DNA of 64,000 bases, from NCBI GenBank assembly GCA_029776065.1, contig JARVJP010000009.1, positions 578,514 through 642,513 of the forward strand, given 5' to 3'. Below the pieces are notes generated by a model. It saw only the letters and a list, made by a program, of their open reading frames with translations. It searched no databases and was not told the DNA's origin. Position 1 is the stretch's first letter. Every line of letters begins with the position of its first letter. This stretch comes from Nitrososphaeria archaeon. GTDB lineage: Archaea > Thermoproteota > Nitrososphaeria > JACIWG01. Position numbers and translations under genes: made by a program. This document shows positions 11,182 through 25,653 of the stretch, piece by piece.

Positions 11182-12495
11182 CTAAATATTTTGGAGAATG
11201 TTAATTAACCTTTCTTTTAGGAGTTCTTCTCCGACCTCTTTTGCCTCAAACCAGACCCTTGCTACTGGCTGATTAATGCTGATAACCTTTGAAATGTTGG
11301 ATGGTGTGCCTAGGACTACTGCGTCACATTCAACTCTGGAAATCGACTTCTCTAAATCTTCTAGTTGTTCTGAGCTATATCCTAGTGCTGGCATGACAGA
11401 GCCTATATGAGGGAACCTTTGAAAAGCTTCTTTTATGCTACCTACGGATCTATCCCTTGGGTCAACGAGTGTTGCGCCTAGCTTCTTAGAAATAAAAGCT
11501 CCAACTGCTTCAGATAATCCGCCATGGGTGATGGTTGGGCCATCTTCTACTACTAGAACCTTCTTTCCTTTAACGAGTTCAGGTTTATCTAATTTGGCTT
11601 CAGAGCTGGTCTTCACAACTAATGCGTTAGGTACTTCCCTCTTGGCTATCTTCTCAAGCTTACCTATGTTCCCCATTGGAGAGACGTTTACCTTGTTAAT
11701 AACTATCACATCCGCCGATCTAAAGTTCACTTCACCAGGGAAGCTCGAGAGCGTGTCTTCAAATCTGAAGGGGTCTGCTACACAAATGTTTATTGTAGGT
11801 TTATAGAAGGGCATGTCGTTGTTCCCCCCGTCCCAGATTATAACATCGCCTTCTTTCTCCACCTCTTTTAATACCTTCATATAATCTACTCCTGCAAATA
11901 CTGTAGTCCCTGTATCAATGTGCTGCTCGTATTCTTCTCTTTCCTCTATGGTAATGTTATACTTTGCTAAGTCTTCATATGTCTCAAATCTTTGAACTAT
12001 CTTGTTAAGGTCGCCATAGGGCATTGGGTGGCGGACTACTACAGGTTTTTTGCCAATAGACTTTATTATCGAAGACACATACCTAGATATTGTGCTTTTA
12101 CCTGCCCCTGTTCTTGTAGCTACTATTGAAATCACTGGTTTCTTGGACTTGAGTTCTGTGTCCTTGGGCCCAAGGAGGTGGAATGACGCACCTGCCGCCA
12201 TAGCCTTAGATGCTAAGTTCATAACATGTTGGTGAGAAACGTCGCTATAAGAGAAGTAAACGTCTTGAACTCCATGTTTCTTTATCAACTCCACCATTTT
12301 TTCTTCATCGTAGATAGGTATTCCTTTAGGGTACATTCTCCCTGAAACCTTTGGGGGGTACTTTCTGTTTGATATGTAAGGTATCTGTGTTGCTGTGAAA
12401 GCAATGACCTTGAAATGTTTATTGTTCCGGAAAAACACGTTAAAGTTGTGAAAGTCTCTTCCTGCCGCGCCTAGAATAATAGCTTTACGTGGCAT
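11182..12495 (-). CDS. Cyclic 2,3-diphosphoglycerate synthetase-like GTPase
   Basis: Resembles the CPGS family, which makes the thermoprotectant cyclic 2,3-diphosphoglycerate in some methanogens; many homologues in other archaea are uncharacterised. An N-terminal Rossmann-like segment (GAAGRDFHNFN) precedes a P-loop, ATRTGAGKST, near residue 133, then IWDGGNNDMPFYKP and VINKVN (GTP-binding-like). At 437 residues it is full length. It sits directly upstream of the nucleoside phosphorylase and near apgM, which makes the 2- and 3-phosphoglycerate pool. No 2-phosphoglycerate kinase is in the window. Confidence 0.78.
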   Translation of the reverse strand: MPRKAIILGAAGRDFHNFNVFFRNNKHFKVIAFTATQIPYISNRKYPPKVSGRMYPKGIPIYDEEKMVELIKKHGVQDVYFSYSDVSHQHVMNLASKAMAAGASFHLLGPKDTELKSKKPVISIVATRTGAGKSTISRYVSSIIKSIGKKPVVVRHPMPYGDLNKIVQRFETYEDLAKYNITIEEREEYEQHIDTGTTVFAGVDYMKVLKEVEKEGDVIIWDGGNNDMPFYKPTINICVADPFRFEDTLSSFPGEVNFRSADVIVINKVNVSPMGNIGKLEKIAKREVPNALVVKTSSEAKLDKPELVKGKKVLVVEDGPTITHGGLSEAVGAFISKKLGATLVDPRDRSVGSIKEAFQRFPHIGSVMPALGYSSEQLEDLEKSISRVECDAVVLGTPSNISKVISINQPVARVWFEAKEVGEELLKERLINILQNI

Positions 12496-12695
12496 AAAGG
12501 GTCGTGGTTTAGTCGCCCTCTCCTTTATAAAAAGCTTCTTAGAATCGCTGTTTTAATCAGATCTCTTTATATGCTTTGATGCCAGGATATATTAGTAGGG
12601 GTTTGAAGATGGCTTTATCTATTAACATCTTTTGCGATGATTAGCCTCCTATTGCTTTCTTTGTTGCCTCACATATTGGATAGGGTGTTATAGAA

Positions 12696-12709
12696 ATGTT
12701 CTAGAACAT
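12696..12709. promoter_or_regulatory. Perfect 14-bp palindrome, probable operator
   Basis: ATGTTCTAGAACAT is a perfect palindrome lying six bases upstream of the TATA element at 12716. This is the usual place for an activator or BRE-overlapping repressor site. It belongs to the small RNA candidate, since no protein gene starts downstream on this strand. Confidence 0.55.
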
Positions 12710-12715
12710 ACGGTG

Positions 12716-12722
12716 TTATATA
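12716..12722 (+). promoter_or_regulatory. TATA element of the small RNA candidate
   Basis: TTATATA preceded by a G-rich BRE-like CGGTG. It predicts a transcription start near 12740-12747, exactly where a G-run and the first hairpin begin. Confidence 0.5.
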
Positions 12723-12739
12723 CTCTATTAATTATTGTG

Positions 12740-12840
12740 GGGGTGAAGGTCTGCCTTCATCAGTCATATCAATCATGTGTGTGGCTGGTGGGCTTGAGTC
12801 GAACCAGAACCACACACAAAGAATTTATTTTATTATCTTA
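12740..12840 (+). ncRNA. Candidate structured small RNA in a gene-free gap
   Basis: The 358-base gap 12496-12853 holds no convincing protein gene. After the palindrome and TATA element come hairpin 1 (TGAAGG, loop TCTG, CCTTCA; 12744-12759) and hairpin 2. Hairpin 2 has arms TGTGTGTGG (12776-12784) and CCACACACA (12810-12818) around an inner CTGGT/ACCAG stem, a 13-base loop and an AA bulge. A T-rich tract (12823-12840) then resembles an archaeal terminator. Promoter, structure and end suggest an RNA of about 100 bases. I recognise no known family. The 5' part of the gap (12496-12690) shows nothing except a second TATA-like TTTATATGC near 12562. Confidence 0.45.
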
Positions 12841-12853
12841 GTTCTATTGCTTT

Positions 12854-13540
12854 TTAGAGTTCGTCAGCTACCCTCTTGTACTCTGGCAATAGTTCACGAT
12901 AGCTTATAGGTGTTGTTCCCATTACTATTGAATTAAGTACTACGCCCCCGCACCCTATTTTGTTTAGTAGTTTTAGATCGGTTGCTTCGATGAACTTCTG
13001 GGTTGGCACGATGACAGGTTTAACTGATCTTTTTCTAATTAGAATGTAGTTTGTTATATCGAATAATGTTAACGGTAGTCTGAATACGGATTGTGTCATA
13101 ATCGACGCCTCTATTGCGCCTACCTTCCCATCATGCGATAGTATCTCCACCTGCTCTAGGACGTATCCGCTTCCTACAGAGACTATCTTGTCCATTCTAT
13201 CATCGTTGTAAATATATGAAGGCATATGATGTGCCATCATCTTCACGTAGTCGACTCCTATTCCCACAACCTTCTCCCATTCTTCTTTGCTTATCATCGG
13301 GGTATCCCCGATCTGAACTCCTACGGGTATATTGACGGCGCCAATTACCTCCCTTATAGCGGACTCTTCGAGGTCTATTCCTCCGAATCTTATCGCAGAA
13401 GCTGTGTCCTCGAAGTTCAAGTGGACTTCTATAGCGTCAACTCCGGATTCTTCTGATGCGGTTGCAAGTTCCATGCTGTTTGTGTTAAGACTTGATATCA
13501 AAGTGAATTTTCTTTTAAGGAGTTCTACAGTTCTGCTCAA
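12854..13540 (-). CDS. Predicted TIM-barrel protein of unknown function
   Basis: 228 residues with the repeating beta-strand/helix pattern of a TIM barrel: SGVDAIEVHLN, VNIPVGVQIGDTP, IGVDYVKMM, VGAIEASIM, VKPVIVPTQK and GCGGVVLNSIVMG. The last Gly-Gly strand resembles a phosphate-binding loop. I do not recognise a specific family, and BtpA-like or dihydroorotate dehydrogenase-like relatives are only analogies. It follows the D-aminoacylase gene by 78 bases on the same strand, so it may act in the same pathway. Confidence 0.75.
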   Translation of the reverse strand: MSRTVELLKRKFTLISSLNTNSMELATASEESGVDAIEVHLNFEDTASAIRFGGIDLEESAIREVIGAVNIPVGVQIGDTPMISKEEWEKVVGIGVDYVKMMAHHMPSYIYNDDRMDKIVSVGSGYVLEQVEILSHDGKVGAIEASIMTQSVFRLPLTLFDITNYILIRKRSVKPVIVPTQKFIEATDLKLLNKIGCGGVVLNSIVMGTTPISYRELLPEYKRVADEL

Positions 13541-23693: not shown

Positions 23694-25406
23694 TTGTTCG
23701 ACATAATTGTTAGAGGCGGTAAGGTTGTTGATGGGACTGGTAACCCGTGGTTTAAGGCCGACATAGGTATAAAAGACGGTAAAATTGTTGAACTAGGCCG
23801 TTTAGAAAAGGAAAAGGCAGATACAGTAATAGATGCACGAGGTAACGTAGTGTCTCCTGGATTCGTCGACATGCATAGTCACTCGGATCTAACCCTCTTT
23901 ATCAATCCAAAACTTGAGAGTACAATACATCAAGGTATAACGACTTTAGTAGTTGGGAACTGTGGTATAAGCTTGGCTCCCATTAATAAAAAGCATGAGC
24001 ATCTCCTTGAAAGATATATAGCGCCTTTTTTGCCACCAGGTGCGTCTATCAGGTTTCAATGGTCCACCTTCGAAGATTATCTTAGACATGAGAACAAACA
24101 GGATCTATCATCTAATGTGGCACACCTTGTTGGGCATGGAACGGTAAGGGTTGCTGTAATGGGTTTCCAAGATAGAGCTCCTAGCGATGTGGAATTAGAA
24201 CATATGAAGTATCTTGTAGCTGAGGCGATGGAGGCTGGAGCCTTCGGCATGTCTACTGGCTTGATCTACCCTCCAGGTATCTTTTCTGGAACAGGAGAGT
24301 TGGTAGAAGTTGCAAAGGTCGTTTCGAAGTATGGAGGTTTGTATTCATCGCATGTCAGGGGAGAAAGTTCGAACCTTATCTACTCAATTGAGGAGGCGAT
24401 CGAGATCGGGGAGAAAAGCGGTGTCTCAGTTCAAATATCTCATCACAAGGTCGCTGGTAGACAGCAAATAGGAAAAAGTGTTGAAACCCTTAAACTTATG
24501 GAGGATGCTAGGAAAAGAGGTGTCGACGTAGCATGTGATCAATACCCGTATGAGGCTGGGATGACTTCGCTCGCAACCCTTCTCCCCCCATGGGTTCACG
24601 AAGGCGGTATAGATCAACTCTTGGAAAGGATAAAGAGACTTGAAGATAGAGTAAAGATAAGGGATGATATTGAAAAAGATACAACTGGTTGGGAGAATAT
24701 AATTAATGAGAACGGGTGGGAGAACATTTACATAAGTAATGTGAAGACAGAGAAGAACAAAGATCTTCAGGGAAAGAACATTCAAGAAGCTGCGAGGATG
24801 ATGGGTAAACCTGATGAGTTAACAGCTCTTTTAGATCTACTCGTGGAGGAAGAAGGTTCAGGCACTATGGTGGTGTTTGTTACAAAGGAAGAGGATGTTT
24901 GCAAGATACTGTCTAATCCTCTAACAATGGTTGGTACGGACTCCTGGTCTACATCACCAGAAGGTGTGTTATCTGCTGGTAAGCCGCATCCAAGGTTCTA
25001 TGGCACTTACCCAAGGATATTAAGAGAGTATGTTAGGGAAAGGTCAATTCTGAGTTTAGAAGAGGCAGTACGTAAGATGACTTCTTTTCCCGCTCAAAGA
25101 CTCAGGTTATGGGGTAGAGGGGTGATCAGAGAAAACATGTGGGCTGATATCGTAGTGTTCAATCCAGATACGATCATGGATACAGCGACATATCAGAATC
25201 CCCATCAATATCCAGAGGGAATAGAGTATGTTATAGTCAACGGGGAGATAGTTATTGATAAGAGACAGCAGACACAGAATTACCCTGGTAGGGTTTTACG
25301 TCATAAATTTCCAAAGAAAACCTTCCCGCATGATGGGAGAATTTCTCTGAAGGGATTCGAAGAGGTATTCTCGAGCCAAAAGGATAGGGATCGGCTTACT
25401 TTATAA
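23694..25406 (+). CDS. N-acyl-D-amino-acid deacylase (D-aminoacylase), copy 2
   Basis: Amidohydrolase of 570 residues, paralogous to 13619-15259. Motifs: GFVDMHSHSDLT (metal-binding HxHSD), GNCGISLAPI, GMSTGLIYPPG, SSHVRGES, ISHHKVAG, VGTDSWSTSPEG (metal Asp) and the ending NPHQYPEGIEYVIVNGE. TTG 23694 starts the conserved FDIIVRGGKVVDGTG and has AGGTG upstream. Unlike copy 1 it has an inverted repeat over its promoter, so the copies are probably regulated differently. Probably also cleaves acylated D-amino acids or related amides. Confidence 0.87.
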   Translation: MFDIIVRGGKVVDGTGNPWFKADIGIKDGKIVELGRLEKEKADTVIDARGNVVSPGFVDMHSHSDLTLFINPKLESTIHQGITTLVVGNCGISLAPINKKHEHLLERYIAPFLPPGASIRFQWSTFEDYLRHENKQDLSSNVAHLVGHGTVRVAVMGFQDRAPSDVELEHMKYLVAEAMEAGAFGMSTGLIYPPGIFSGTGELVEVAKVVSKYGGLYSSHVRGESSNLIYSIEEAIEIGEKSGVSVQISHHKVAGRQQIGKSVETLKLMEDARKRGVDVACDQYPYEAGMTSLATLLPPWVHEGGIDQLLERIKRLEDRVKIRDDIEKDTTGWENIINENGWENIYISNVKTEKNKDLQGKNIQEAARMMGKPDELTALLDLLVEEEGSGTMVVFVTKEEDVCKILSNPLTMVGTDSWSTSPEGVLSAGKPHPRFYGTYPRILREYVRERSILSLEEAVRKMTSFPAQRLRLWGRGVIRENMWADIVVFNPDTIMDTATYQNPHQYPEGIEYVIVNGEIVIDKRQQTQNYPGRVLRHKFPKKTFPHDGRISLKGFEEVFSSQKDRDRLTL

Positions 25407-25416
25407 GATTAGGAAG

Positions 25417-25653
25417 CTATCTAAGTTTTTCAGCTTCTTCTAATCGCTCTATCAACTTTGACATGATATCGCAAAGCGCCACTGTTGATCTCATAGCTTC
25501 TACAGCAAAGGCAGTGAAACTCCTTGAGATACCTGCTTCAGTGACCTCCATCCTGAGAAATCTCTCCAAGTCTTCTCTCATTTTTGTCTGTTTGTCGATA
25601 AGATTTTTTCTTACCATTTCGATTTCCTGCCTTAAGTCAGAATAAGTTGACAT
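25417..25653 (-). CDS. Small helical protein of unknown function
   Basis: 78 residues, almost entirely helix-forming and charged, e.g. DLRQEIEMVRKNLIDKQ, then a less polar central segment and a final IERLEEAEKL. A coiled-coil or helical hairpin is likely. It is convergent with the D-aminoacylase gene, 10 bases apart. I do not recognise it. Confidence 0.55.
   Translation of the reverse strand: MSTYSDLRQEIEMVRKNLIDKQTKMREDLERFLRMEVTEAGISRSFTAFAVEAMRSTVALCDIMSKLIERLEEAEKLR

Follow-up and report, generated by a model that had tools for sequence, protein, structure and literature searches.

Sequence alone is a poor guide to small-RNA genes in archaea, and beyond a few models little is known about how their transcription is controlled. 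Intergenic small RNAs of Haloferax, Methanosarcina and Pyrococcus have been seen as transcripts; they are short structured RNAs encoded between genes, and many archaeal intergenic small RNAs are regulated (PMC3432209, PMC3124441). Promoter-based prediction of small RNAs had not worked in archaea, and by 2012 no thaumarchaeote had been surveyed for them (PMC3432209). The candidate described here resembles these RNAs in being short, structured and intergenic; in contrast to them it is known from sequence alone, but its operator has comparative support.

Winged-helix factors of the ArsR, TrmB or Lrp type bind archaeal operators directly upstream of BRE/TATA. As at our locus, such operators consist of inverted repeats spaced by one helical turn and set at a constant distance from TATA. 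The archaeal guide RNAs of the H/ACA and C/D classes are, like our candidate, small structured RNAs between genes; unlike them, the candidate has by eye neither a pseudouridylation pocket nor C/D boxes.

The locus lies in a 64-kb stretch of DNA (the window) within a 1.74-Mb genome assembly whose closest named relatives are uncultured Nitrososphaeria. Our comparison set within the family was this genome (G000) and four relatives from another genus (G001-G004); the source genome is the sole representative of its genus among the genomes compared. The original prediction had read a palindrome, a TATA box, a structured RNA and a terminator, in that order, as an independently regulated small RNA. 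We find that the argument from the order of parts holds up, weak as each part is by itself. The gap rather probably holds a plus-strand small non-coding RNA gene under a transcription-factor-controlled promoter, in one regulon with the genes for a surface protein and for an MshEN-glycosyltransferase.

The gap and its tandem operator

The gap spans 358 bp (12496-12853) between two minus-strand genes. The first (11182-12495) encodes a 437-aa protein without a match in Pfam or NCBIfam, which we take to resemble archaeal cyclic 2,3-diphosphoglycerate synthetase; this gene's own TATA promoter, TCAAAGCATATAAA, lies at 12566-12579 on the minus strand. The second (12854-13540), convergent to the candidate RNA, encodes a 228-aa protein and is kept in relatives. 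Two other structured sites were seen in the window: a 16-bp perfect palindrome, TCCTTGGGCCCAAGGA, within the 437-aa gene (12161-12176), and a terminator-like 12-bp hairpin (25407-25445) directly 3' of the stop codon of the open reading frame at 23694-25406.

The perfect palindrome of the original prediction, ATGTTCTAGAACAT, is present at 12696-12709 on the plus strand, with the core operator TTCTAGAA at 12699-12706, and the TATA box TTATATA follows where it had been placed, at 12716-12722 after a six-base spacer (ACGGTG). An upstream operator copy, TTATAGAA (12688-12695), with one mismatch to TTCTAGAA, lies 11 bp 5' of the main copy.

Generic tests find palindrome and TATA box ordinary, in agreement with the earlier judgement that each part alone is weak. 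The window contains six palindromes of at least 14 bp, which is background level (about five estimated from composition). Across the whole genome, at up to two mismatches, the palindrome alone shows no enrichment (23 matches vs 23 for a reversed control), and a second perfect copy sits within coding sequence, by eye that of glycyl-tRNA synthetase. We therefore rejected the palindrome alone as a regulon marker, since it is not enriched and most copies are in coding sequence. The TATA box is weak, scoring 6.3 bits with a generic promoter matrix learned from the regions ahead of 48 of the window's own gene starts, where 323 places score as well or better; it also has no A-rich element upstream. 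Promoter-like BLAST matches in relatives were mostly coding, the exception being a fumarase-like promoter of G002 and G003. In both G003 and G002 the string TTATATACTCTATYAATT, which matches the window's TATA region at 17-18 of 18 bases, is found where a fumarate-hydratase-like gene starts (L007 and L010, around 1501-1518).

The combination of operator and TATA box recurs in the family. We searched the five family genomes with the query TGTTCTAGAACAT-N6-TTAWATA, taken from the window, allowing up to three mismatches. Each of the four relatives gave exactly one two-mismatch match and none with fewer, and the source genome gave a one-mismatch match; all five stand ahead of a single orthologous gene for a secreted protein, the ortholog being 52% identical to the source-genome protein. 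The start codon of this gene sits at motif +50 in all four relatives and at +58 in the source genome. Because the query was derived from the window, the likeness of the matches to the window is partly by construction; in these sequence comparisons, the support that is not built in is that the best matches fall on a single orthologous promoter and have in common an element outside the first query.

That element is the second operator copy. In an ungapped alignment a second TTCTAGAA lies 11 bp upstream of the first in three of the four relatives, where the window has TTATAGAA, and since it was absent from the first query it gives independent support. The spacing equals that of TTCTAGAA-N3-TTCTAGAR in the promoters of G001, G002 and G003 and of the MshEN-glycosyltransferase in the source genome. 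At zero mismatches the tandem composite is found, among 300 genomes of the class, only in the window, G001, G002 and G003, and its reversed control had no match in the five family genomes. The window has the tandem copies 11 bp apart and 9 nt before TTAWATA, the upstream copy carrying its one mismatch, and its six-base TATA spacing is that of the conserved promoters.

With the window left out of the training set, a matrix puts the window site at the top of 127,932 positions (28.0 bits); the runners-up are the same operator on the other strand (18.0 bits) and then a site at 11.2, and none of 20 million simulated positions reached the window-site score. With a matrix from the four relatives alone the site is still first of 127,932 (18.2 vs 13.4). 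Given the recurrence of the module at an orthologous promoter, the second copy and the matrix rank, we conclude that the window site is very probably a genuine, regulated plus-strand promoter. The conserved operator-TATA module, with its fixed distance to the start, would give an independent small RNA a promoter of its own. In the relatives the start codons at motif +50 sit where leaderless transcription would begin, and from these and the TATA spacing we infer that the window's transcription start is near 12743-12748 on the plus strand.

The source genome also has two one-mismatch palindrome copies 41 bp apart in one intergenic region; the inner copy, read toward the adjacent gene, is ATGTTCTAGAAGAT-CAGATA-TTAAATAC, with the six-base TATA spacing of the window.

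Structure, strand and distribution of the predicted RNA

Two hairpins and a T-rich end had been predicted downstream, and they are there. The 5' hairpin, GGTGAAGG-TCTG-CCTTCATC (12742-12761), forms only if the transcript starts at or before about 12744: with a start at 12744 both hairpins form (-29.4 kcal/mol), and with a start at 12747 only the main one. The main hairpin, TGTGTGTGG-CTGGT ... ACCAG-AA-CCACACACA (12776-12818), has 9 + 5 Watson-Crick pairs with an AA bulge, and GGC/GUC pairing extends it within the loop. At 14 bp it is the best Watson-Crick hairpin in the 64 kb, where six Markov windows reached at most 13, and its 48-nt fold has a z of -3.9, a structure stable beyond chance. The stretch at 12823-12858 is T-rich (61% T, a content within the window's top 0.11%). 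It runs up to the convergent 228-aa gene's stop codon and is a probable termination zone; a simple terminator scan found none, there being no canonical stem followed by a T run. In simulated intergenic-like sequence equal to the window's whole intergenic content, such a hairpin arose in 7 of 300 cases and a hairpin with T-rich tail in 0 of 300. The RNA body is also a G+C island (0.52 vs 0.36 for intergenic DNA), within the top 1% of intergenic windows.

The T-rich end, by extending to the convergent stop codon at 12854, also suits a reading in which the promoter is regulated but its product is irrelevant, plus-strand transcription serving to interfere with the 228-aa gene or to block its readthrough. 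This would leave the 14-bp hairpin and the G+C island unexplained, and we consider it unlikely.

The stem might instead be an intercistronic processing or stability stem-loop of a minus-strand mRNA of the 228-aa and 437-aa genes, with the operator incidental; both genes are on the minus strand, their counterparts in G002 are adjacent with a short gap, and the 14-bp stem can fold on either strand. However, the stem is more stable on the plus strand (-23.0 vs -18.8 kcal/mol on the minus), the 437-aa gene has its own promoter, and operator and TATA box orient to the plus strand. The plus strand is further favoured because the two extensions that depend on wobble pairs (GGC/GUC in the loop, G-U in hairpin 1) form there only, and only there does the T-rich tract follow. 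A minus-strand mRNA element is, on this evidence, quite improbable.

The predicted RNA has no relative among 300 genomes by BLAST, and a single-sequence covariance model retrieved only itself from 200 genomes; a covariance search of the family alone, at E up to 10, gave one match at E 6. The counterparts of the flanking genes are separated by 72 bp in G002 (L025) and by about 40 bp in G004 (L024), and lie on separate contigs in G001; the G002 and G004 gaps contain no element comparable to that of the window. With relatives' gaps of only about 40-70 bp, the extra sequence is specific to the source genome among those compared. As neither a homologue nor such a gap was found in relatives, the RNA is lineage-specific at best, and we regard it as probably a lineage-specific candidate. 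Gene order near the gap is rearranged relative to the relatives, the window having an amidohydrolase gene between the helicase and the 228-aa gene and, at the other side, a 514-aa gene that presumably encodes GMP synthase. In G001 the 437-aa counterpart (L031, 1501-2784) contains in-frame stops (one TAG and one TAA) and may be decaying or misassembled.

Several known classes were tried and rejected. No Rfam family matched at gathering or relaxed thresholds (to E 5), guide RNAs of the H/ACA or C/D type included; a weak chance match to SNORD25 appeared elsewhere in the gap at the relaxed threshold. By eye, the apical loop is not a canonical H/ACA or kink-turn structure. ARAGORN at default thresholds, also with introns allowed, found no tRNA, intron-containing tRNA or split tRNA, and a T-arm-like string on the minus strand, GGTTCGACTC, has no matching stem. 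A mobile element was rejected on finding no second copy in the genome and no match in plasmids, phages or viral contigs; TnpB-like genes occur elsewhere in the genome, and BLAST with the gap gave no match near them.

The unlike local gene order and the gap without counterpart in relatives would fit a remnant of rearrangement or insertion, that is, a duplicated or decaying promoter with a fortuitous hairpin, as would the TnpB/OrfB-like insertion (zinc-ribbon transposase-like fragments; L024, 6728-7726) that breaks the 437-aa counterpart in G004. We think such a remnant quite unlikely, since the genome has no other copy, the operator spacing and TATA box are intact, and hairpin and tail together are improbable by chance.

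The gap had been said to hold no open reading frame of note, and its longest is 44 aa. A leaderless mRNA from the GTG at 12743, which lies at the predicted start like the start codons in four relatives, could encode a 32-aa protein (MKVCLHQSYQSCVWLVGLSRTRTTHKEFILLS, 12743-12841, plus strand), but this is barely credible, the product having no Pfam match and the frame a codon score of -0.35, lower than in any of the 31-codon stretches sampled from real genes and of the kind usual for non-coding open frames. That score makes a non-coding RNA likelier than a small protein.

We retain the reading as a regulated small RNA, with its two halves differently supported: strongly for the promoter half, as the module stands at the orthologous promoter in five of five family genomes and the second copy is shared with three relatives; for the RNA half, the hairpins, the T-rich end, the G+C island and a codon score typical of non-coding sequence speak in its favour, and the searches above returned no RNA relative.

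A candidate cell-surface regulon

A one-mismatch tandem site in the source genome precedes the gene for a protein with an MshEN domain and a family-2 glycosyltransferase (L083). This archaeal protein (G000:C10, about 20.3-21.8 kb) is a fusion of MshEN to a cellulose-synthase-like family-2 glycosyltransferase, and its gene and one for a PAS/GAF sensor are divergently oriented. In bacteria, cyclic di-GMP can be a ligand of MshEN domains. A two-mismatch intergenic site, also in the source genome (L085), lies ahead of a short C2H2-like zinc-finger gene; at 1501-1690 of that locus the operator-TATA site is followed by a 34-codon frame, MYVSIIELKPYCQCGKVPREFFELRSTKALLRCN, and then by the zinc-finger gene. 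Outside the family, G270 (family f16) has a site ahead of the gene for a secreted protein with a C-terminal segment weakly similar to the orthologous secreted protein described above (30 columns, E 3e-4).

Adjoining the secreted-protein gene, and convergent with it, G000, G002 and G004 encode a winged-helix protein of the HTH_20/ArsR type with a long hydrophobic C-terminal part (L086, 5305-6123; L087, 5653-6504; L088, 7353-8195). The protein is conserved, with 44% identity between G000 and G002, and is a candidate regulator by neighbourhood only. The literature searched gave no match for TTCTAGAA together with archaea and transcription factor.

We propose that a transcription factor, as a pair of dimers, would bind the two TTCTAGAA-type inverted repeats, centred 11 bp or one helical turn apart, at 12688-12706. 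Bound just upstream of the TATA box, it would switch initiation near 12743-12748; such a position would suit a repressor of TBP/TFB access as well as an activator. The predicted RNA, some 75-110 nt long, would contain the 14-bp hairpin and probably the short 5' hairpin, and would end in the T-rich tract near the stop of the convergent gene. The candidate factor would be the ArsR-type protein encoded beside the secreted-protein gene. The same factor would control the conserved secreted surface protein and the MshEN-glycosyltransferase in the source genome, which would place the RNA under common control with cell-surface or exopolysaccharide functions. More speculatively, were the RNA to act in trans, the unpaired linker (about 12762-12775) and the loop would be its likely contacts.

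Taken at its widest, the proposal is of a new archaeal cell-surface regulon, in which a tandem TTCTAGAA operator and a possibly membrane-anchored ArsR-type factor would govern a surface protein, an MshEN-glycosyltransferase and a dedicated small RNA; we put this forward as a tentative possibility. The candidate RNA is tied to a specific operator that is conserved in relatives at a named target, which makes regulator, regulon and RNA testable together. If true, uncultured Nitrososphaeria would have a surface or biofilm switch with a small-RNA arm driven by a transcription factor, and this uncultured archaeal lineage would gain its first concrete candidate for a cell-surface regulon.
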